This document shows positions 1,056 through 54,043 of a DNA stretch of 64,000 nucleotides, piece after piece. The DNA lies in assembly GCF_029238095.1 (NCBI RefSeq), contig NZ_JAQWGS010000027.1, forward strand, positions 124,001 to 188,000, given 5' to 3'. Below the pieces are notes generated by a model. That model was not told the DNA's origin. It made no database searches and saw only the letters and a list, made by a program, of their open reading frames with translations. The translations under genes were made by a program, and so were the position numbers. How positions within the stretch are numbered: position 1 is the stretch's first letter; the number at the start of each line of letters is the position of its first letter. The stretch comes from Lacinutrix sp. Lineage in GTDB: Bacteria > Bacteroidota > Bacteroidia > Flavobacteriales > Flavobacteriaceae.

Positions 1056-1919
1056 ATGCATCAAAAACAAGTTCACATTGTTTCTAAGTTAGAAAAACCT
1101 ATAAGACTTCAAGAATACGGTGTTGGCCTATTTGAGTTGGTTTATACCAAATCTGCCTTAAAAAAAGCATTAAAAAAAGATTACATTACTGTAAATGGTG
1201 TTCATGCAACATCAGCTACTTACATAAATGGAGGAGAAACTATTTGTTTATGTGTTCCAGAAGATGGTAACCCAAAAACCAAACTAAAATTAAAGCTAAA
1301 CGTATTATTTGACGACGATTATTTGGCAGTCATCTACAAACCAGCAGGCGTTTTAGTAAGCGGAAATAGCTTTAAAACTATTGCAAATGCTTTACCTCAA
1401 AACCTAAAAAGGAGTACGCTTCCAGATGCTACAATACCTCAACCAGTTCACAGATTAGATTATCCTACAACTGGCTTATTATTAATAGGAAAAACAAATA
1501 ATAGTATTCGAGAATTAAACAACCTTTTTGAAAACAAAAAAATCAAAAAAACCTATTACGCTATTACCATTGGAGACATGGCACCTAAAGGAAATATAAC
1601 TTCTAGTATTGATGGTAAACAGGCTCAATCTAACTTTACGGTAAAAGCAAGTGTTACATCGAAAAGGTTTAGTAAACTTAATTTAGTAAAGTTGAAACCT
1701 AAAACTGGGAGAAAACACCAATTAAGAAAACATTTATTAAGTATTGGAACACCAATTTTAGGAGATAAAGACTACGGAATAGAGCCTTATATATTAAAAG
1801 GCAAAGGCTTGTATTTACATGCTTATGCTTTAAATTTCGTGCATCCTTTTACAAAAGACAAAGTGTCTTTTAAAGATGAATTACCCAATAAGTTTAAAAA
1901 GATATTTGAAGGAAAATAA
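1056..1919 (+). CDS. RluA-family RNA pseudouridine synthase
   Basis: A 287-residue member of the RluA/RsuA-like pseudouridine synthases, which isomerise specific uridines in 23S rRNA or tRNA. Residues 1-80 look like an S4-type RNA-binding domain (ALKKDYITVNG). The catalytic domain begins with the DDYLAVIYKPAGVLV segment. Motif II is HRLDYPTTGLLLIGK, in which Asp135 is the expected nucleophile; the family usually has HRLDxxTSG, so the YPT variant is slightly unusual. KTYYAI and GRKHQLRKHL (the RxHQ(L/I)R motif) follow, as in RluA enzymes. The target uridine cannot be read from sequence. The gene is convergent with the ABC permease downstream, with a small repeat in the 99-base gap. Confidence 0.9.
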   Translation: MHQKQVHIVSKLEKPIRLQEYGVGLFELVYTKSALKKALKKDYITVNGVHATSATYINGGETICLCVPEDGNPKTKLKLKLNVLFDDDYLAVIYKPAGVLVSGNSFKTIANALPQNLKRSTLPDATIPQPVHRLDYPTTGLLLIGKTNNSIRELNNLFENKKIKKTYYAITIGDMAPKGNITSSIDGKQAQSNFTVKASVTSKRFSKLNLVKLKPKTGRKHQLRKHLLSIGTPILGDKDYGIEPYILKGKGLYLHAYALNFVHPFTKDKVSFKDELPNKFKKIFEGK

Positions 1920-16889: not shown

Positions 16890-17803
16890 TGCTACGTTTC
16901 TACAGTCACGGAAAATTATTGCTAACAGCAGAATATGTTGTACTTGATGGTGCTAAAGCATTAGCATTACCAACAAAGTACGGACAATCTTTAACCGTTA
17001 AAACTATAGAACCTCTTAAATTAATTTGGAAAAGTATTGATTACAAAGGAGAAGTTTGGTTTGAAGATATATTTGACATCTCTAATACTAAGATTTCTCA
17101 ATTTGTACGAAATAACAATCCAGTTTCAAAAAGATTAATCGAGATATTAAATGCAGCAAAAATTCTTAATCCTGAATTTTTAGATACAAATAATGGCTAT
17201 GAAGTAGTTTCTACCTTAGAATTTCCAAATAATTGGGGATTAGGCTCCTCTTCAACACTTTTAAATAATATAGCACAATGGGCAAAAATAGATGCGTTTA
17301 TACTGTCTAACATAACATTTGGAGGTAGTGGATATGATATTGCTTGTGCCAATAATAACACTGCAATTCTATACTATCTAAAGCATAAAAAACCTAAAGT
17401 TGAATCCGTTTTATTTAATAAAAATTATTTAAATGAATTATTTTTTGTGCATTTAAACAGAAAACAAAACAGTAGAGATTCTATAAAAACCTACCGAAAA
17501 AACAAGAGCAATACTGAAACTATAATTGATAAAATAAATACTATTACTTCTAATTTTTTAAAAACAGAAACTTTAAACGAATTTAACTCACTAATTAACG
17601 AACACGAAACATTAATTGGAGCCATTACTAATCAAACACCAATTAAACAACGCCTATTCAAAGATTTTAAAAACGAAATAAAAAGCCTTGGTGGTTGGAA
17701 TGGTGATTTTATTTTGGCAACAGGTAAAAAAGACTATGTACATTCTTATTTTAAAGAACGTGACTATAACACTATTATAGATTATAAAGACATGATTCTT
17801 TAA
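16889..17803 (+). CDS. GHMP kinase, GYDIA family (mevalonate-pathway-like)
   Basis: A 304-residue small-molecule kinase of the GHMP superfamily. The N-terminal FYSHGKLLLTAEYVVLDGA is the substrate-binding start seen in mevalonate-type kinases. The ATP-binding glycine loop is GLGSSSTLLNN (near residue 117). GGSGYDIACA gives the GYDIA name to this group, which is found mainly in Bacteroidota. The start codon shares a base with the HMG-CoA reductase stop, so mevalonate or a phosphorylated derivative is the likely substrate. Which phosphorylation step it catalyses cannot be read from sequence. A strong terminator follows 21 bases after the stop. Confidence 0.85.
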   Translation: MLRFYSHGKLLLTAEYVVLDGAKALALPTKYGQSLTVKTIEPLKLIWKSIDYKGEVWFEDIFDISNTKISQFVRNNNPVSKRLIEILNAAKILNPEFLDTNNGYEVVSTLEFPNNWGLGSSSTLLNNIAQWAKIDAFILSNITFGGSGYDIACANNNTAILYYLKHKKPKVESVLFNKNYLNELFFVHLNRKQNSRDSIKTYRKNKSNTETIIDKINTITSNFLKTETLNEFNSLINEHETLIGAITNQTPIKQRLFKDFKNEIKSLGGWNGDFILATGKKDYVHSYFKERDYNTIIDYKDMIL

Positions 17804-27977: not shown

Positions 27978-28122
27978 CTAATAATTAGATTAAATATTTG
28001 ATTTTTAAGTTTTTACAACAAATTTTATCGATTGAACATCGTAACATTTTCAAGAGTGATAATTAGTAATAATTAACCAAAGTATAAATTAGTCTTTCAA
28101 TAGAAAAATAAAAAGTGCTTAA

Positions 28123-29310
28123 ATGTCAAATAATCAAATTCAAATTTTCGATACCACACTTAGAGATGGAGAACAAGTTCCAGGTTGTAAATTAAATACA
28201 GAACAAAAAGTCGTCATCGCAAAACAATTAGATTTATTAGGTGTAGATGTTATTGAAGCTGGCTTTCCTGTTTCAAGTCCAGGCGATTTTAAATCGGTTG
28301 AAGCCATCTCAAAAATTGTAAAAAACGCAACAGTTTGTGGTTTAACACGTGCTGTAGAAAATGATATTAAGGTCGCTTCTGAGGCACTGAAATATGCAAA
28401 AAGACCTAGGATTCATACAGGAATAGGCACATCAGACTCACATATTATTCATAAATTTAAATCTAATAAAGACACTATAATAGAACGTGCTTTTGCTGCT
28501 GTTAAGTATGCCAAATCGTTTGTTGAAGATGTAGAGTTTTATGCTGAAGATGCTGGGCGTACAGAAAACGACTATTTAGCTAGAGTTTGCGAAGCAGCAA
28601 TAAAAGCTGGTGCAACTGTATTAAATATTCCAGATACAACAGGTTATTGTTTACCTAGTGAATATGGAACAAAAATTAAGTATTTAAAGGAGAACGTAAA
28701 AGGCATTGAAAAGGCCATTTTATCCTGTCACTGCCATAACGATTTAGGTTTGGCAACCGCAAATTCTATTGAAGGTGTTATTAATGGTGCAAGACAAATA
28801 GAATGTACCATTAATGGTATTGGTGAACGTGCAGGAAACACAGCCTTAGAAGAAGTTGTAATGGTTTTAAAACAACACCCTTATTTAAATTTAGATACAA
28901 ATATTAAAACCGAAATGCTATATGGAATGAGTCAATTGGTTTCCGATAGTATGGGAATTTACACCCAACCAAACAAAGCCATTGTTGGCGCCAATGCTTT
29001 TGCGCACAGTTCTGGAATACACCAAGATGGCGTGATTAAAAATCGTGAAACTTATGAAATTATAAACCCTAAAGACGTTGGTGTTACAGAATCTGCTATT
29101 GTATTAACCGCCAGAAGTGGTCGTGCTGCTTTAGCGTATAGAGCTAAAAATGTAGGTTACGAGTTAACAAAATTACAGCTTGATGATGTATATGCCAATT
29201 TTCTATGCTTTGCAGATAGAAAGAAAGAGATCAATAATAATGATATTCATCAAATTATCGAAACAAGTAATGTGTATCACCAAATAATATCAGCACAATA
29301 TGAGCAATAA
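28123..29310 (+). CDS. leuA: 2-isopropylmalate synthase, short form without regulatory domain
   Basis: A 395-residue enzyme that condenses acetyl-CoA with 2-oxoisovalerate, the first committed step of leucine synthesis. The DRE-TIM barrel signature is [14 protein letters not shown] near the N terminus; the metal-binding HxH is in [15 protein letters not shown], and [16 protein letters not shown] follows. [19 protein letters not shown] marks the linker region. The protein ends at about residue 395, where E. coli-type LeuA (about 520 residues) goes on into the leucine-binding regulatory domain; that domain is missing. Homocitrate or citramalate synthase are alternatives, but the leuCDB context makes isopropylmalate synthase most likely. 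It overlaps leuC by 11 bases. Confidence 0.94.
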
Positions 29311-46367: not shown

Positions 46368-47636
46368 TTAAACTAAAAATTGAAATAAATCTGGTTTATT
46401 GTTTAAGTAATCTCCATAAAAATTATGAAGTTTCATTTTAGTAATTAATGGTTCTAAATCTTTTGGCGATTTCAGTTCTAATCCAACAACTGCGACGGCA
46501 TTATCTCTGTTTGCTTTTTTAGTGTATTCAAAATGTGTGATATCATCTGTTGGACCTAAAATATCGACTACAAAATCTCTTAAAGCTCCTGCACGTTGTG
46601 GAAATTTAACAATGAAATAATGTTTTAAATTCGCATATAACAGCGCTCTTTCTTTTATTTCTGCTGTACGTGTGATATCATTATTACTTCCGCTTATTAC
46701 ACAAACCACGTTTTTACCTTTTATTTCTTCAGAAAACTGGTCTAAAGCAGAAAGACTTAATGCTCCTGCTGGTTCTACAACAATAGCATCTTTATTATAT
46801 AAATCTAAAATGGTCTGACAAATCTTGCCTTCGTCTACTGTTACCACACGATGTAAAGTCTCTTTACAAATGGCGAAATTTAAATCGCCAACGCGTTTCA
46901 CCGCAGCCCCATCAACAAAGCTATCTATGGATTTTAGTTCTATATTTTGATTATTTCTAATAGAATTTAACATGGCAGGAGCTCCTTTAGGTTCGACACT
47001 AATAATTCTAGTTTGTGGTGATAATATTTTAAATACCGAAGATAATCCTGCAGCCAAACCTCCACCACCTACTGCTAAAAAAACATAATCTATAACATTT
47101 GATTGTGCTTGTTGTATAATTTCTAAACCAACTGTTGCTTGACCTTCTATTACTTTCTCATCGTTAAAAGGATGAATAAATGTTTTATTTAAAGCTTCGC
47201 ATTGCGTTTTGGCTTTGTGAAAAGCATCATCAAAAGTATCACCAACTAGAACAACATCTACGTATTCTTCCCCAAACATTTTTACCTGTTCAATTTTTTG
47301 ATTAGGTGTTGGAGATGGCATAAAAACAGTCCCTTTTATCTTCAATAATTTACATGAAATAGCAAAACCTTGTGCATGATTGCCAGCACTAGCACATACA
47401 ATTCCATTTTCAATTTGGTTATTACTTAAACTTGAAATTTTATTGTAAGCGCCTCTAATTTTGTAAGAACGAACTTCTTGCAAGTCTTCTCTTTTAAAAA
47501 AAATATTAGCACCAAATTGCTTTGAATAGCGAGCGTTTTTACTTAAAGGTGTAACAGATGCAATACCTTTTAATTTTTCTGCGGCTTCTTCTATAGCTTT
47601 TAATGTTGGCCTATATATTGTTTTTGTATCTTCCAT
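46368..47636 (-). CDS. ilvA: Threonine ammonia-lyase (threonine deaminase)
   Basis: A 422-residue PLP enzyme converting threonine to 2-oxobutyrate for isoleucine synthesis. The PLP Lys is in VRSYKIRGAYNKI, the substrate loop in CASAGNHAQGFA and the phosphate-binding glycines in LAVGGGGLAAGLS. The C-terminal 80 residues (HYFIVKFPQRAGALRDFV) form one ACT-like regulatory domain, making it the shorter biosynthetic form with a single such domain instead of the two in E. coli IlvA. Isoleucine feedback is therefore likely but may differ in detail. It lies 64 bases downstream of ilvC. Confidence 0.95.
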   Translation of the reverse strand: MEDTKTIYRPTLKAIEEAAEKLKGIASVTPLSKNARYSKQFGANIFFKREDLQEVRSYKIRGAYNKISSLSNNQIENGIVCASAGNHAQGFAISCKLLKIKGTVFMPSPTPNQKIEQVKMFGEEYVDVVLVGDTFDDAFHKAKTQCEALNKTFIHPFNDEKVIEGQATVGLEIIQQAQSNVIDYVFLAVGGGGLAAGLSSVFKILSPQTRIISVEPKGAPAMLNSIRNNQNIELKSIDSFVDGAAVKRVGDLNFAICKETLHRVVTVDEGKICQTILDLYNKDAIVVEPAGALSLSALDQFSEEIKGKNVVCVISGSNNDITRTAEIKERALLYANLKHYFIVKFPQRAGALRDFVVDILGPTDDITHFEYTKKANRDNAVAVVGLELKSPKDLEPLITKMKLHNFYGDYLNNKPDLFQFLV

Positions 47637-47700: not shown

Positions 47701-49197
47701 CTAGACAATAGTTTTAACTTTTGCTTCCGCTTTTATTACTTTCATAGCGGTCATTGAAGCTCTTAATTTTTCGCCAATTATTTCTACAGGATGAGTTCTA
47801 ATAGCGTTATTTATAAAGATAAGGTGTTGGTTATCTACAGCATTTGTTTGTGTAAATGGTTTACCTATTATATTTGTTTTTACAGTATCCATAAAACTGG
47901 CTAATAGTGGTTTACAAGCATGATCAAATAAATAACAACCATATTCTGCAGTATCTGAAATGACACGATTCATTTCAAATAATTTTTTTCGAGCTATGGT
48001 ATTTGCTATTAATGGTGTTTCATGTAACGATTCATAATAGGCAGATTCTGCAATTATACCAGCATCTGTCATCGATTCAAAAGCTAACTCAACACCAGCT
48101 CTAACAAAAGCAACCAATAATGTTCCATGGTCAAAATATTCTTGTTCTGATATTTCGTTTGTTGTTACTGTTGTTTTTTCAAAAGCAGTTTCTCCTGTTG
48201 CTGCTCGCCATTTTAATAAGTTAGCATCATTATTTGCCCAATCCTCCATCATCGTTTTTGAAAAATGACCAGAAATAATGTCGTCCATATGTTTGTGAAA
48301 TAATGGTCTCATAATCTCTTTTAATTCTTCTGAAATTTCAAATGCTTTTATTTTTGCTGGATTAGACAAGCGGTCCATCATATTGGTAATACCACCGTGT
48401 TTTAGCGCTTCGGTAATAGTTTCCCATCCATACTGAATCAATTTTGAAGCATAACTAGCCTCAATACCTTCTTCAACCATTTTATTAAAACATAAAATAG
48501 AACCTGTTTGTAGCACACCACACAAAATGGTTTGCTCACCCATTAAATCACTTTTTACTTCTGCTATAAATGAAGATTGTAAAACTCCAGCACGATGCCC
48601 TCCTGTTGCTGCTGCATATGCTTTTGCTTGTAACCAGCCTTTATTTTCAGGATCGTTTTCTGGATGTACTGCAATAAGTGTTGGCACTCCAAATCCGCGT
48701 TTAAACTCTTCTCTAACCTCTGTCCCTGGACACTTTGGAGCTACCATAATTACGGTTATATCTTCACGTATTTTAGTGCCTTCTTCTACAATATTAAAAC
48801 CATGAGAGTAGCTTAGTGTTGCTCCTTTTTTCATTAAAGGCATTACTGTTTTTACTACATTGGTGTGTTGTTTATCTGGTGTTAAATTAAGTACTAAATC
48901 TGCGTCTGGAATTAAATTATCGTAAGTATCAACAGTAAAGTTGTTATTGGTCGCGTTTATAAACGAATCCCGTTTTTCATCAATTGCTTGTTGACGTAAG
49001 GCATAAGAAATATCTAATCCAGAGTCACGCATGTTTAAACCTTGATTTAAACCTTGTGACCCACAGCCTATAATTACAATTTTCTTTTCTTTTAAAGCAT
49101 TTACACCGTCTTGAAACTCTGATGCGTCCATAAAACGACACTTCCCTAATTGCTCTAATTGTTCTCTTAAAGTTAACGTATTAAAATAATTTGACAT
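47701..49197 (-). CDS. ilvC: Ketol-acid reductoisomerase, class II (long form)
   Basis: A 498-residue enzyme that isomerises and reduces acetolactate or acetohydroxybutyrate using NADPH and Mg2+. The Rossmann site is [20 protein letters not shown], with the following YALR segment preferring NADPH by analogy. [19 protein letters not shown] and [10 protein letters not shown] belong to the catalytic core, and a second knotted domain repeat fills the C-terminal half ([20 protein letters not shown]). The length shows the long E. coli/plant type. It starts 14 bases after ilvN ends. Confidence 0.96.
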
Positions 49198-49211: not shown

Positions 49212-49739
49212 TTAATGTTGTAATGCTGCAAGCATTGTTGATATTTTCATTTCGTCTTTTGTTACTGCTATACGTCCTGAGCGTGTAAATTGCATGATTC
49301 CAAAAACATTTAATTCTCTATATAATAAGTCTATCTCTTCCTTTCTTCCCGATTTTTCAATAACAAAAAAATCTTTGTTTACGGTAACTATTCTGGAATT
49401 ACTTTCTTTAATTATATTCTGAATGTGACGCTCATCAAACAATAAATTTGATTTGATTTTGAACATACACGATTCTTGATAAATTGTTTCTTCTTCGGTA
49501 TGATAATATGCTTTAATAACCTCAACTTGCTTTTCTATCTGTCCAATGATTTTTTTCATTTGCTCTTCAGAAAGCTTAACTACCATAATCCATTTGGTTA
49601 CATTTTCAATTTCTGAAACCGAAGAATTTATACTCTCTATATTAATATGTCTTCTTTGAAAAATTGCCGAAATACGGTTTAGTAATCCGATGTTATTTTC
49701 GGTATAAATTGAAACTGTATATATTATTTGTGCACTCAT
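49212..49739 (-). CDS. ilvN: Acetolactate synthase, small regulatory subunit
   Basis: A 175-residue ACT-domain subunit that binds valine and controls the large subunit. The N-terminal ACT domain reads YTVSIYTENNIGLLNRISAI, then FQRRHINIESINSS, as in IlvH/IlvN. The C-terminal half (VTVNKDFFVIEKSG, GIMQFTRSGRIAV) matches the second domain of the family. It is preceded by ilvB with a 46-base gap. Confidence 0.94.
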   Translation of the reverse strand: MSAQIIYTVSIYTENNIGLLNRISAIFQRRHINIESINSSVSEIENVTKWIMVVKLSEEQMKKIIGQIEKQVEVIKAYYHTEEETIYQESCMFKIKSNLLFDERHIQNIIKESNSRIVTVNKDFFVIEKSGRKEEIDLLYRELNVFGIMQFTRSGRIAVTKDEMKISTMLAALQH

Positions 49740-49785: not shown

Positions 49786-51519
49786 TTACTCTAATCTTAT
49801 ATCTGAAACACTTGCTCCTGTTGGAATCATAGGAAAAACATTGTCTTCTTTTTCTACTCTTACTTCCAAAAAATAAGGTCCATCTGTTGCTATCATTTCT
49901 TTTACAGCAGCTTTTAAGTCTTTTCTTGTTGTTACTTTTTTTGCTTCAATAAAATAGCCTTTAGCAATTGCAACAAAATCTGGATTCGTCATTTCAGTTG
50001 ATGCATAACGTTTATCAAAAAATAATTGTTGCCACTGTCTAACCATTCCTAAAAACTCGTTATTTAGTACCACAATTTTTACAGGAACTTTCTGTTGAAA
50101 AATAGTTCCTAATTCTTGTATTGTCATCTGGTAACCACCATCGCCTATAATTGCAACTACTTCTCTTTCTGGCGCAGCCATTTTTGCACCTATTGCTGCT
50201 GGCAAAGCAAATCCCATGGTGCCTAGTCCTCCAGAGGTAATGTTGCTCTTGGTTTTATTGAAGTTAGCATATCGACAGGCAATCATTTGATGCTGACCAA
50301 CATCGCTAACAATAGCAGCTTCTCCTTTTGTTTGTGTATTAATCTCTTTTAATACTTCTCCCATGGTCAAACCTTCTTTGGTAGGATGTAAATCGTTTTT
50401 AATGACTTTCTCGTATTCTATATTATATAAATCTTTAAACTTTTGGTGCCAGTCTTTGTGTGAGTTTTTATTTAACAAAGGTAATAATGACTTTAAACTT
50501 GCTTTTGCATCACCCAAAACAGCAACATCTGTTTTTACATTCTTATCAACCTCAGCAGGATCAATTTCAAAATGAACCACTTTGGCTTGTTTTGCATATC
50601 GAGATAAATCACCTGTCACACGATCATCAAAACGCATTCCAATAGCAATCAAAACATCACAATCGTTTGTTAATACATTAGGTGCATAATTACCATGCAT
50701 ACCTACCATACCTATATTAAGGTAATGAGATGTTGGCAATGCAGAAGCCCCTAAAATAGTCCAAGCCGAAGGAATTCCTGCTTTTTCTATTACTGCTTTA
50801 AATTCAGCTTCAGCTTTACTTAAAATAACGCCTTGTCCCCAAACTATTAGTGGTTTTTTAGCATTATTTATTAATTTTGCAGCTTCCTTTAAAGCCTTTT
50901 TATCTGTTTTAGGAACTGGAACATAACTACGAATTCTAGTACATTTTTCATATTTAAAATCAAATAGTTCAAATTGTGCATCCTTAGTGATGTCAACAAG
51001 GACAGGACCAGGTCTTCCGGTTTTAGCAATGTAAAAAGCTTTAGCCAAAACTTCAGGAATCTCTGATGCTTTTGTAATTTGATGATTCCATTTAGTTACA
51101 GGTGTTGATATCCCTATAATATCGGTCTCTTGAAATGCATCTGTACCCAATAAATGAGATCCTACTTGACCTGTAATACAAACCATTGGAGTACTATCTA
51201 TTTGAGCATCTGCAATTCCTGTAATTAAATTGGTTGCTCCAGGACCAGAAGTTGCGATTGCAACACCAACTTTACCAGAAATACGCGCATAGCCTTGCGC
51301 AGCATGCGTAGCTCCTTGCTCATGACGTGTTAATACATGATGAATTTTATCCTGATACTTGTAAAGTTCATCATAAACTGGCATGATTGCACCTCCTGGA
51401 TATCCATAAAGAATATCTACACCTTCTGCTAAAAGACATTTAATAACAGCTTCGCTACCTGAAATATGTTCTGCTTTTTGTGAAGATTTATGTGTCTGTT
51501 TTATGGTTTCTGCTTCCAT
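49786..51519 (-). CDS. ilvB: Acetolactate synthase, large catalytic subunit
   Basis: A 577-residue ThDP- and FAD-dependent enzyme making acetolactate and acetohydroxybutyrate. YGYPGGAIMPVYDELY and HHVLTRHEQGATHAAQGYAR carry the catalytic Glu; the ThDP/Mg motif is IGDGGYQMTIQELGTI…KIVVLNN. GLGTMGFALPAAIGAK and MVRQWQQLFFDKRYA are typical of anabolic acetohydroxyacid synthases, as opposed to catabolic AlsS. It lies 38 bases after ilvD. Confidence 0.97.
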   Translation of the reverse strand: MEAETIKQTHKSSQKAEHISGSEAVIKCLLAEGVDILYGYPGGAIMPVYDELYKYQDKIHHVLTRHEQGATHAAQGYARISGKVGVAIATSGPGATNLITGIADAQIDSTPMVCITGQVGSHLLGTDAFQETDIIGISTPVTKWNHQITKASEIPEVLAKAFYIAKTGRPGPVLVDITKDAQFELFDFKYEKCTRIRSYVPVPKTDKKALKEAAKLINNAKKPLIVWGQGVILSKAEAEFKAVIEKAGIPSAWTILGASALPTSHYLNIGMVGMHGNYAPNVLTNDCDVLIAIGMRFDDRVTGDLSRYAKQAKVVHFEIDPAEVDKNVKTDVAVLGDAKASLKSLLPLLNKNSHKDWHQKFKDLYNIEYEKVIKNDLHPTKEGLTMGEVLKEINTQTKGEAAIVSDVGQHQMIACRYANFNKTKSNITSGGLGTMGFALPAAIGAKMAAPEREVVAIIGDGGYQMTIQELGTIFQQKVPVKIVVLNNEFLGMVRQWQQLFFDKRYASTEMTNPDFVAIAKGYFIEAKKVTTRKDLKAAVKEMIATDGPYFLEVRVEKEDNVFPMIPTGASVSDIRLE

Positions 51520-51557: not shown

Positions 51558-53237
51558 TTAAGCATCAGTAATACAGCCTCTAGATGCAGATGCTACTGTT
51601 TTTGAGTATTTATATAAAATTCCTTTATTATGTTTTAATGGTGGAGCAACCCATTTTAATTTACGTTCTGCTAATTCTTCATCAGAAATCAAAACATTTA
51701 TGGAATTGTCTTCTGCACTAATTTTTATTCTGTCTCCTGTTTTTAATAAGCCTATTGTTCCTCCAGATTGTGCTTCTGGTGTAATATGACCAACTACAAA
51801 GCCATGTGTCCCTCCAGAAAAACGACCATCTGTAATTAATGCTACAGATTTACCTAAACCTGCTCCCATTATTAAGGATGTTGGCTTTAACATTTCTGGC
51901 ATTCCTGGACCTCCTTTTGGTCCAACATATCTTATAACAACAACATCTCCTTTTTCTACTTCTCCGTTTGAAATTCCTGTGTTTGCTGCTTGCTCGCCAT
52001 CATATACCACTGCTTTACCTTCAAAAAGTAATCCTTCATTTCCAGAAATTTTTGCTACTGCACCTTCTGTTGCTAGGTTTCCGTAGATAATTTGAATATT
52101 TCCTGAGGATTTTAATGCTTTATTTTTTGGATAAATAACGTCTTGATCTTCAAATTCCATAGCTTTTACATTAGCTAAATTTTCTGCTAATGTTTTTCCT
52201 GTTACTGTTAAACAATCACCATGTAAATAACCATTATCTAATAAATATTTCATTATTGCTGGTGTGCCACCAACTCCGTGAACATCTTCCATTAAGTATT
52301 TTCCAGATGGCTTTAAATCTGCAATTAAAGGTGTTCTATCTGAAACTTTTTGAAAATCTTCTAAAGTAAACTCAATATCAGCGGCATGTGCAATGGCTAA
52401 AAAATGTAATACAGCATTTGTAGAACCACCTAAAGCGTTTACAATTGCAATAGCGTTTTCTAAAGATTCTTTAGAAATAATATCTATTGGTTTTAAATCT
52501 AATTCTAATAAATTTTTAATAGCTAATGCTGTGCGCTCTGCTTCAGATAATTTATTAGGATTCTCTGCAGGAATAGAAGAATTGTAAGGTAATGCAAAAC
52601 CCATACACTCTATTGCAGAAGCCATAGTATTAGCTGTATACATGCCACCACAAGCTCCAGCTCCAGGAATGGCTCTTTTAATAATTTCTCTATATTCTTC
52701 TTCTTCAATTTCGCCAGAAACTTTTTGTCCCAAAGCTTCGAAAGCAGAAACGATGTTTAATTTTCTTCCTTTATAATTTCCAGAGGCAATAGTTCCTCCA
52801 TACATCATTATAGATGGTCGATTTAATCGCAACATAGCTATAACTGCTCCTGGCATATTTTTATCGCAACCAACCACAGAAATCAAAGCATCATAACTTT
52901 GTGCATTCATAACGGTTTCAATAGAATCTGCGATAATGTCTCTTGACACCAATGAATAATTCATTCCTGAAGTTCCCATAGAAATTCCGTCTGAAACACC
53001 AATGGTATTAAACCCTAAACCAACTAAACCTGCTATTTTACATTCTATTTTAACTTCTCCTGCTAATCCATTTAAATGCATGTTACAAGGATTACCATCG
53101 TAACCAGTGCTTGCAATACCTACTTGGGCTTTCTGCATGTCTTCATCGGTCAAGCCAACAGCATAGAGCATGGCTTGAGAAGCTGGCTGAGAATCGTCTT
53201 GTGTTAATCGTTTACTGTGTTTGTTTAAATCGCTCAT
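51558..53237 (-). CDS. ilvD: Dihydroxy-acid dehydratase
   Basis: A 559-residue iron-sulfur dehydratase for the last common step to 2-oxoisovalerate and 2-oxo-3-methylvalerate. Cluster Cys lie in [20 protein letters not shown] and [34 protein letters not shown] near the C terminus is diagnostic. Length is normal. It is the first structural gene of the operon; the start lies about 190 bases downstream of the attenuator terminator, so the whole ilv operon is under its control. Confidence 0.97.
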
Positions 53238-53428
53238 ATTGATTGTGCAAATTCTATTTGCTGGACTAAATTAGTGGTTTATAGGTTTTCTGTATATCAT
53301 GAATACGTTTATTAAGCTAAATCCAATACAACTAAATATTATATAAATATTTAAAAAACAGATACTTAACTGTAATTATTTATGATGTTCAATACTTTTA
53401 ATAATTAACGTGTTTACATTACAAGCAT

Positions 53429-53458
53429 AAAAAAAGCCTTCCATTTATAGGAAGGCTT
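53429..53458 (-). terminator. ilv attenuator (intrinsic terminator in the leader)
   Basis: On the minus strand: AAGCCTTCC (53458-53450), a 7-base TATAAAT loop, GGAAGGCTT (53442-53434) and a run of seven T (to 53429). The 9-base stem is perfect. It lies between the leader peptide and ilvD, not after a full gene, so it fits an attenuator. Its 5' arm can pair instead with the segment that spans the last codons of the leader peptide (53495-53487). Confidence 0.88.
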
Positions 53459-53482
53459 AAAATTAATTTATGTTTTAATTTG

Positions 53483-53557
53483 TCATAGCATTCCTTGGCC
53501 TCGTGAAATAATCACGATGCAAATAATAGAAATGATATTAATGGTTTGTTCTTTCAT
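53483..53557 (-). CDS. ilv leader peptide (Ile-rich)
   Basis: A 24-codon frame from ATG at 53557 to TGA at 53483. The peptide starts MKEQTINIISIICIVII and ends SRGQGML: 8 of 24 residues are Ile, clustered at positions 6-17, plus one Val and a terminal Leu. Stalling at Ile codons would signal low charged tRNA-Ile. An antiterminator segment overlaps the last codons, directly before the stop, followed 25 bases later by the attenuator hairpin. It is too short for ordinary ORF calling. Read as a ribosome-mediated attenuator of the ilv operon. Confidence 0.85.
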   Translation of the reverse strand: MKEQTINIISIICIVIISRGQGML

Positions 53558-53565
53558 AATGAATT

Positions 53566-53596
53566 CAAATATTGAAAAAACTTTGTTGTAATCCAA
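53566..53596 (-). promoter_or_regulatory. Candidate promoter of the ilv operon
   Basis: On the minus strand: TTG (53596-53594) in a T-rich run, 20 bases, then AATATTTG (53573-53566), one base away from TAnnTTTG. Transcription would start only a few bases before the leader-peptide ATG (53557), so the leader message would be almost leaderless. The spacing suits the Bacteroidota sigma factor, but the match is not perfect. Confidence 0.5.
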
Positions 53597-53707
53597 AAAA
53601 TTTTAAAAAAAATACTGATTCCCTAATGTTTTATGTAATCTTTAAGAACTAACTACGACAAAAAATATTATATTAGAAATTCTAAAAAAATAACTAAACT
53701 TTTATAT

Positions 53708-54043
53708 ATGTCCAATACATATTACGATCCTGCAGACCTAAAGAAATTTGGAAAAATTAGTGAATGGAATCAGGATTTAGGTGATAAATTTTTTGAGTAT
53801 TACGGTAAAGTATTCGAAGAAGGTGCGCTCTCTGCTAGAGAAAAATCATTGATTGCGTTAGCTGTAGCGCATACAGAACAATGTCCTTATTGCATTGATG
53901 CTTACACAAAAGATGGTTTACAACGTGGTATAACAAAAGAAGAGATGATGGAAGCACTACATGTAGGAGCGGCTATTAAAAGTGGTGCAACCTTGGTTCA
54001 TGGTGTACAGATGATGAATAAAGTAAACAAATTAGATGGTTAA
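53708..54043 (+). CDS. Arsenosugar-cluster AhpD-like (peroxidase-like) protein
   Basis: A 111-residue protein of the carboxymuconolactone decarboxylase/AhpD fold. The redox pair is Cys59/Cys62 in EQCPYCIDAY, preceded by the AVAHT segment of AhpD. The His that normally follows the second Cys by four residues is Tyr66 here, so classical AhpD alkylhydroperoxidase chemistry is doubtful; a thiol-reducing role for pentavalent or trivalent arsenic compounds is conceivable. It is the first gene of the arsenosugar cluster, 55 bases before arsS. This small CMD protein typically accompanies arsS/arsM in bacteria. Confidence 0.88.
   Translation: MSNTYYDPADLKKFGKISEWNQDLGDKFFEYYGKVFEEGALSAREKSLIALAVAHTEQCPYCIDAYTKDGLQRGITKEEMMEALHVGAAIKSGATLVHGVQMMNKVNKLDG

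Follow-up and report, generated by a model that had tools for sequence, protein, structure and literature searches.

The question raised by this locus is how transcription into the isoleucine and valine genes of a Lacinutrix strain is controlled. In the window (the whole stretch of DNA analysed, 64,000 nucleotides), ilvD, ilvB, ilvN, ilvC and ilvA lie adjacent to one another on the minus strand, and the end products of the operon are Ile and Val. The first gene, ilvD (51558..53237), encodes a dihydroxy-acid dehydratase (TIGR00110, 711.8 bits, above the cut-off), and ilvB (49786-51519), ilvN (49212-49739), ilvC (47701-49197) and ilvA (46368-47636) were each assigned by an NCBIfam match above the cut-off. 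The upstream neighbor is divergent (53708 onward, plus strand), so that a minus-strand terminator in the gap has only a leader to end. The attenuators of the enterobacterial ilvGMEDA, ilvBN, his and trp operons follow the Yanofsky model. Here, a leader, a hairpin, an antiterminator segment and an intrinsic terminator occupy 53557-53434 (minus strand), 5' of ilvD-ilvB-ilvN-ilvC-ilvA. Judging from sequence comparison and modelled RNA folding, we consider it very probable that this element is a ribosome-mediated transcription attenuator of ilvDBNCA that senses charged tRNA-Ile and, to a lesser extent, charged tRNA-Val. A first-pass annotation of the locus had proposed ribosome-mediated attenuation, and it is still the best reading in view of the Ile-rich frames, the covarying helices and the own-locus antiterminator pairing found in relatives.

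The leader ORF (53483..53557, minus strand) comprises 24 codons followed by TGA, translates to MKEQTINIISIICIVIISRGQGML and recurs in relatives. Minus-strand reading from 53557 to 53483 bears out the original description of eight Ile residues within codons 6-17 (codons 6, 8, 9, 11, 12, 14, 16 and 17) and one Val (codon 15). Such a content within 24 codons, placed before an ilv operon, makes this a leader rich in codons for the products of the operon. When every ATG was counted, the window contained 520 small ORFs of 15-45 codons, one of which had at least eight Ile in 24 or fewer residues. Upstream of the leader, a putative -7-like box of a promoter designated P1, AATATTTG (53566..53573, minus strand), ends 8 nt before the leader ATG, so the predicted 5' UTR is approximately 4 nt. 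The box differs at one of the six specified positions from the consensus TAnnTTTG, which was mapped at -12 to -5 as the sigma-A -7 box of Flavobacterium psychrophilum (excerpted text of PMC9723704). TTTG was found in the 45 nt that precede the first leader ATG at 69 of 86 loci, compared to a shuffle mean of 32, and in 38 of those 69 it was located 8-12 nt before the ATG. From these positions we infer that P1 is a real promoter and that its transcript begins a few bases 5' of the leader ORF.

Three segments of the predicted transcript can pair in alternative ways upstream of the final arm of the terminator. Region 1, AUAUCAUUUCU (53528..53538, minus strand), covers part of codon 7, Ile 8, Ile 9 and Ser 10, and can pair with region 2, AGGAAUGCUAU (53485..53495, minus strand). 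Region 2 is the partner either of region 1, as a protector, or of region 3, AGCCUUCCU (53449..53457, minus strand), as an antiterminator; region 3 is also the 5' arm of the intrinsic terminator (3:4; 53434..53458, minus strand), whose T-run goes on to 53429. As had been claimed, AGGAATGCT (53495-53487) pairs with AGCCTTCCT (53457-53449) in eight of nine positions. The perfect 9-bp terminator stem was likewise confirmed, with a loop of 7, and the seven T residues reported behind it hold if the last two bases of the stem are counted. This was the sole terminator-like site in 601 nt (shuffle mean 0.1), and GCCTTCC..GGAAGG occurs at one place in the 2.3-Mb sequence of the strain's own genome. The fold of the leader region had a z score of -4.98, with none of 200 shuffles as good, and in the minimum-energy fold region 1 is paired with region 2. 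The anatomy of the switch had thus been read correctly at the outset, except that the 1:2 protector helix, which joins codons 7-10 to the antiterminator segment, had been missed. That helix also changes the standing of the short hairpin CGTGA-TTATT-TCACG (53516-53502), which is present and overlaps the Ile codons as described. Its treatment as a separate element was rejected, as the minimum-energy fold and covariation both make it the tip of the longer 1:2 helix. Written out to 53501..53517 (minus strand), this pause hairpin, UCGUGA-UUAUU-UCACGA, forms with a probability of 0.90-1.00 as long as the transcript has not reached region 3, and the 1:2 pairs of the window form at that stage with a probability of 0.5-0.7. 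The 2:3 duplex of the window taken alone is not exceptional, with 18 of 100 shuffled spacers pairing as well, and its support therefore comes from relatives.

Other cis-regulatory RNAs (a T-box, a riboswitch or a protein-bound leader) control ilv and leu genes in other phyla, and the ilv-leu operon of Bacillus subtilis is described as having a tRNA-Leu T-box in excerpts of PMC5794164. Control of the present terminator by an RNA of this kind is nonetheless highly improbable. Over 53200-53800 no Rfam family reached its gathering score (the best, Phe_leader, RF01859, scored 30.8 bits against 55), and the Ile-rich ORF and its placement would stay unexplained.

Recurrence of the ribosome-mediated arrangement was surveyed using a detector that called an Ile/Val/Leu-rich ORF followed by a terminator within 90 nt. 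From 110 genomes with an ilvD match, 100 loci were taken, to which the strain's own locus was added from the window; ilvD-matching genomes G004, G008, G052, G062, G065, G067, G069, G095 and G127 were left out, and duplicates L009 and L011 were removed. This set of 101 Flavobacteriaceae loci and a named set of 78 loci are not wholly independent, one region being present in both (as L028 and L168). With thresholds fixed after seeing the data, the stricter detector found the arrangement in 51 of 101 Flavobacteriaceae ilvD upstream regions, compared to 2 of 101 when reverse-complemented and 0-2 of 101 in each of five dinucleotide-shuffled sets. In the named set it was found in 26 of 78, compared to 3 of 78 reverse complements and 0 of 78 in three shuffles. 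The looser threshold gave 59 of 101 and 27 of 78, a tally in which the longer L193 was substituted for L139, and 5 of 895 shuffled regions. Matches outside Flavobacteriaceae include Saprospiraceae (L025, L038, L047 and L080) and Ignavibacteriae (L016). The detector found no attenuator at L138, the ilvD locus of G091, a genome labelled as the same genus as the window. As a separate observation on these genomes, the window's IlvD shares 85-94% identity with its counterparts in 21 genomes from other genera and 68% with the G091 protein, which suggests two ilvD lineages or exchange.

A further site in the window also trips the detector: at approximately 17736-17780 (plus strand), the short ORF MYILILKNVTITLL is followed by a strong terminator, AAAGCCTCGCAATGCGAGGCTTTTTTT, and the site is probably an ordinary terminator.

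Most of the matches before ilvD fell into two types, whose definitions, like the thresholds, were fixed after seeing the data. In type A, to which the window belongs, the leader resembles MKKQILNIISIIVIVIISQ[RG] and the terminator carries CCTTCC; in type B, the leader is shorter and the terminator carries CCTGTATC. Fifty type A leaders contain 303 Ile and 137 Val among 1022 residues, and 27 type B leaders contain 131 Ile and 67 Val among 481. By the looser detector, the 101 Flavobacteriaceae loci divide into 34 with A, 13 with B, 11 with A then B, one other and 42 with no detected attenuator, and the 78 loci of the named set into 11 with A, three with B, two with A then B, two other tandems, nine others and 51 with none. 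Neither A, B nor any tandem arrangement appeared in five sets of 179 shuffled regions, which yielded five matches of other type. Ile is favored by AT-rich codons, and an AT-rich intergenic region might by chance hold both a hydrophobic ORF and a terminator; the shuffled regions, with 0-2 detections against 51 among the real loci, make coincidence extremely improbable.

The first-pass annotation had looked to Flavobacteriaceae for conservation, and there Ile-rich frames recur, the 1:2 and pause helices covary, and antiterminator pairing within a locus beats pairing across loci. Alignment and folding of type A were performed on 50 loci (49 distinct sequences); nine of the 59 loci classed as A were left out (L005, L016, L023, L030, L051, L104, L106, L121 and L160). 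The 1:2 helix with its tip was paired in 80.9% of cells across the 50 loci, compared to 36-57% when slid by 1-3 columns, and its covariation score was 0.291, compared to 0.090-0.132 when slid. Both-sided changes occurred in 42 cells, against 16.9 in shuffles and 20-37 in slid versions, and all six pairs of the hairpin tip showed such changes among the 49 distinct sequences. The number of 1:2 and tip pairs with both-sided changes (11) did not stand out, being reached in 145 of 500 shuffles and lying within the 7-13 of slid versions. The 7-pair core of the terminator was paired in 94.2% of cells in the 49 distinct sequences. The type A 2:3 duplex was stronger within loci than across them (-9.77 vs -8.70 kcal/mol; permutation p 0.0002; 50 loci), and own-locus pairing exceeded the cross-locus mean in 37 or 36 of the 50, these within- versus cross-locus tests being inflated by related sequences. 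In just 27 of the 50 did five or fewer of 100 shuffles pair as well.

What is kept also bears on the leader peptide. A peptide and a short RNA would be released each time the terminator works, and either might act in trans, for which peTrpL of Sinorhizobium is a reported precedent (PMC7298713). Across loci, however, the hairpin and the Ile/Val codons are kept while the peptide varies, and action in trans would leave room for a cis role too. We therefore regard a trans-acting leader product as improbable and return to the ribosome-mediated reading.

In the mechanism proposed here, transcription would start a few bases before the leader ORF, and RNA polymerase would pause at the 1:2 hairpin. When Ile is scarce, the ribosome would stall at codons 6-17, 2:3 would form and polymerase would continue into ilvD. 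When Ile is plentiful, the ribosome would reach the stop codon and cover region 2, and the 3:4 terminator would form. This scheme was modelled by folding the transcript truncated before region 4, where antiterminator and protector compete, while holding unpaired a ribosome footprint that extends from 16 nt upstream to 13 nt downstream of the first A-site base. In this thermodynamic model, the probability of the antiterminator in the window was 0.85 for a ribosome on any of the Ile codons, dropped to 0.30 on codon 19, 0.11 on codon 20 and 0.07 on codon 21, and was 0.09 at the stop, so that the modelled switch falls just after the last Ile codon. A switch greater than 0.3 between the best Ile/Val/Leu codon and the stop was seen in 50 of 50 type A and 18 of 27 type B loci. 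With the middle Ile/Val/Leu codon as the scoring position, switching was seen in 50 of 50 type A loci, compared to 118 of 300 with shuffled spacers, and in 17 of 27 type B loci, compared to 17 of 162. For leaders ending in Leu, the window included, the spacer in this control began after that Leu, so that their region 2 was left unshuffled. As modelled, the outcome depends on ribosome position. With no ribosome at all, the window still gave an antiterminator probability of 0.85; shut-off without translation is thus not predicted for it, and as 1:2 forms first at 0.5-0.7, kinetics would decide.

In type B, the stop TGA often falls within region 2 (TGATACAG) or a few bases upstream of it. In the type B set, from which one of 28 loci was omitted (L028, leader identical to that of L168), 2:3 was paired in 97.4% of cells without both-sided changes, and among the seven pairing bases 19 of 24 substitutions keep pairing through G-U with a nearly invariant region 3. 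The duplex was stronger within than across loci (-11.25 vs -10.55 kcal/mol; p 0.0078; 27 loci), again in a test inflated by related sequences, with own-locus pairing above the cross-locus mean in just 13 (rows) or 15 (columns) of 27. Given the lack of both-sided changes, the weak own-locus advantage and switching in 18 of 27, B is less sure than A. Common use of the type B terminator among flavobacteria was considered and rejected: its exact pattern was found in nine of 60 genomes, at one place in each, eight of them at ilvD, and the ninth is an intergenic terminator between genes read as rlmN and queA.

The two types occur together at 13 loci (L008, L037, L101, L128, L140, L141, L143, L145, L146, L169, L170, L174 and L193), and the order is A then B in all 13. 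The 11 of these that belong to the 101-locus set carry 11 different genus labels. The second ATG follows the stem of the first terminator by 9-89 nt, and by 24 nt or less in 11 of the 13. So short a gap leaves little or no room for a promoter, and B should therefore be transcribed mostly through A. L016 and L030 hold tandem pairs of another kind. The window has one attenuator (A) and no B, and thus lacks the tandem of two leaders and two terminators. Where both are present, we infer that A and B gate transcription serially. Read-through would then multiply, and the response to a shortage of Ile or Val would thus be steeper than one attenuator allows.

The first-pass annotation had also called the attenuator complete, which was overstated, as the gap from the terminator to ilvD has room for a second putative promoter, P2. 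On the minus strand, this gap in the window contains a distal operator-like site, TTGAACATCATAA (53380..53392), a proximal element, TTGGATTTA (53318..53326; consensus TTGAATTTA), 66 bp from the distal site, and a motif match to a -7-like box, TAATTTAG (53266..53273), from which the promoter is predicted. The same block, consisting of TTGAACATCATAA, a weak CTGATAATCAG-like center, TTGAATTTA and TAnnTTnG, was found in the terminator-to-ilvD gap at 58 of 179 loci, the window included. Its first motif, with two or fewer mismatches, was present in the last 300 nt of 61 of 179 regions, compared to three on reverse complements and 4.2 in shuffles. Of 63 loci with this motif at the same tolerance, 58 were aligned, L014, L133 and L155 having been excluded by position and L017 and L175 removed by hand as apparent coding matches. 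Spacing within the block is nearly fixed: the distal site and the proximal element are 66 bp apart in 56 of 58, the proximal element and the -7 box 51-53 bp apart in all 58, and the distal site and the -7 box 117-119 nt apart in all 58. The P2 box column reads TAnnTT[TAC]G in 54 of 58 and exactly TAnnTTTG in 12, and the center of the block fits a loose palindrome in 28. At the 34 block loci with an A or B attenuator, the block always lies 3' of the last terminator, beginning 11-27 nt further on in 30; the other 24 of the 58 have no detected attenuator. A structured RNA was considered for the block and rejected, as RNAalifold predicts no pairs in the 58 sequences. The block is likely to be an operator together with promoter P2. 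A second putative promoter located after the terminator implies that the attenuator probably gates one of two promoters, and P2, if real, weakens its hold.

The operator-like site connects ilvD to leuA. Exact TTGAACATCRTAA occurs twice in the strain's own genome, before ilvD (the distal site above) and before leuA, a pattern that was chosen after the leuA site had been seen; at one or fewer mismatches there was no excess in that genome, with 24 sites against 27 for the reversed control. The leuA promoter region (28032..28092, plus strand) contains TTGAACATCGTAA at 28032-28044 and TAAATTAG at 28085-28092, and the leuA ATG is at 28123. Among 30 leuA loci, the strain's own included, taken from 47 genomes with a match, TTGAACATCGTAA was found within two mismatches in 23 promoters, compared to 0.40 expected from shuffles, and in none of the 30 on the reverse strand. 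The 23 sites begin 52-53 bp before a TAnnTT[CA]G box, which is the distance of the proximal element at ilvD. Taken as a mark of a wider regulon, the whole block was rejected: in the strain's own genome its profile is strong at ilvD alone (E 3.5e-14), the next of 15 matches (E 0.011) lies in a coding ORF and the 13 others have E values of 0.1 to 10. A strict pattern of the block matched in four of 80 genomes, at ilvD in all four, and was too narrow to recover the window. The presence of TTGAACATCRTAA before both ilvD and leuA likely points to a candidate branched-chain regulator.

It is conceivable, although we think it unlikely, that P2, under a DNA-binding branched-chain regulator, is the main source of operon transcription and that the attenuator is minor or vestigial. 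The breadth of the block, including its 24 loci without a detected attenuator, its nearly invariant 117-119 nt architecture and the recurrence of the site before leuA all speak for such control. A vestige would decay, however, whereas the attenuator helices and the Ile/Val codons are kept, and P2 is a motif call and its regulator putative. With the attenuator retained as the principal reading, P2 and the operator-like site common to leuA would probably add an attenuator-independent supply. For Flavobacteriaceae ilvD as a whole, the sequences lean somewhat towards an arrangement of as many as three layers that always follow the same order (the A attenuator, the B attenuator, and an operator with second promoter that forms a regulon with leuA), with A and B serial on one transcript and responding to the same amino acids; the window would have this arrangement without B.

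The element has end-product codons in a short leader ORF, 1:2, 2:3 and 3:4 alternatives, an intrinsic terminator and an operon for those amino acids in common with enterobacterial ilv attenuators. It departs from those systems in having ilvD as the first gene, a leader ORF that probably begins very near the 5' end of the transcript, no shut-off without translation in the window model and a second putative promoter past the terminator. A comparative study by Vitreschak et al. in 2004, which predicted branched-chain attenuators, reportedly included some Bacteroidetes/Chlorobi. The first-pass annotation was right that attenuation is established for enterobacterial operons, although the process is also known elsewhere, through hints from leader peptides in a flavobacterium (PMC9723704) and an ilvD attenuator in Staphylococcus aureus (PMC5794164), according to portions of these two sources. 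In S. aureus, the ilvD attenuator is supported by selected mutants and reporters, and the ilv-leu operon shares with the window a leader peptide, terminator and antiterminator before ilvD as well as a DNA-binding regulator, putative here (PMC5794164, in part). There, a Leu-rich leader (three Ile) is combined with an antiterminator that sequesters the poly-U tail, and CodY is the regulator; in the window, the leader is Ile/Val-rich, region 2 pairs with the 5' arm of the terminator, and the putative operator, which has a -7-like box of its own, is located 3' of the terminator. Dual control of ilvD, by attenuator and CodY, is thus known outside this family (excerpts of PMC5794164).

F. psychrophilum belongs to the same family as the host of the window, both have leader peptides before amino-acid operons, and clues to leader-peptide attenuation before its amino-acid biosynthesis operons have been published (PMC9723704). 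Section 19 of that paper places pheA and hisG among conserved 5' elements, does not name ilvD and does not work out the mechanism; ilvD has no occurrence in the searched text of PMC9723704. Upstream of a PDT-family (pheA-like) gene of the strain's own genome, L196 (approximately 1337-1463, plus strand) contains the ORF MKTIQNTYYSWYYFFFCKKNETAYM followed by a strong terminator, likely a Phe/Tyr attenuator judging by this layout. The hisG match in the strain's own genome is split into two overlapping pieces, L194 and L195 (G000:C26:154845-155302, minus strand), with a stop inside each, which we attribute to a frameshift or an assembly error.

For the 13 A-B relatives, a comparison is offered by mgtCBR of Salmonella, in which two short ORFs in one leader are each an attenuator (portions of PMC3641672). 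The signals of mgtCBR are ATP and proline and its stem-loops are unlike intrinsic terminators (same portions of PMC3641672), whereas each of the two leaders in the A-B relatives is Ile/Val-rich and is followed by an intrinsic terminator of its own. In Bacteroides thetaiotaomicron, sORFs reminiscent of leader peptides have been noted (PMC7366714, excerpt). According to part of a 2010 survey, ermC apart, none were known outside Proteobacteria and Actinobacteria before its own Firmicutes case (PMC2965389), and part of a 2021 survey describes an unrelated ilvD motif in Veillonella (PMC8632094). Among the open-licence matches listed, no paper dealt with ilvD attenuation or serial amino-acid attenuators in Bacteroidota. 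The element of the window belongs to a known class of attenuators; the serial A-B arrangement in relatives and the operator that P2 appears to share with leuA are less expected.

For the family, these findings turn a suspicion of flavobacterial attenuation already in print into a family-wide case that is open to testing, in which helices covary and a switch codon is predicted. Serial A and B attenuators offer a natural test of whether repeating one sensor sharpens a metabolic switch, and TTGAACATCRTAA ties ilvD to leuA through a candidate branched-chain regulator. Flavobacterial ribosomes do not rely on Shine-Dalgarno sequences (PMC9723704, in part), and leaders that seemingly start near the 5' end of the transcript would show how such ribosomes keep step with RNA polymerase.
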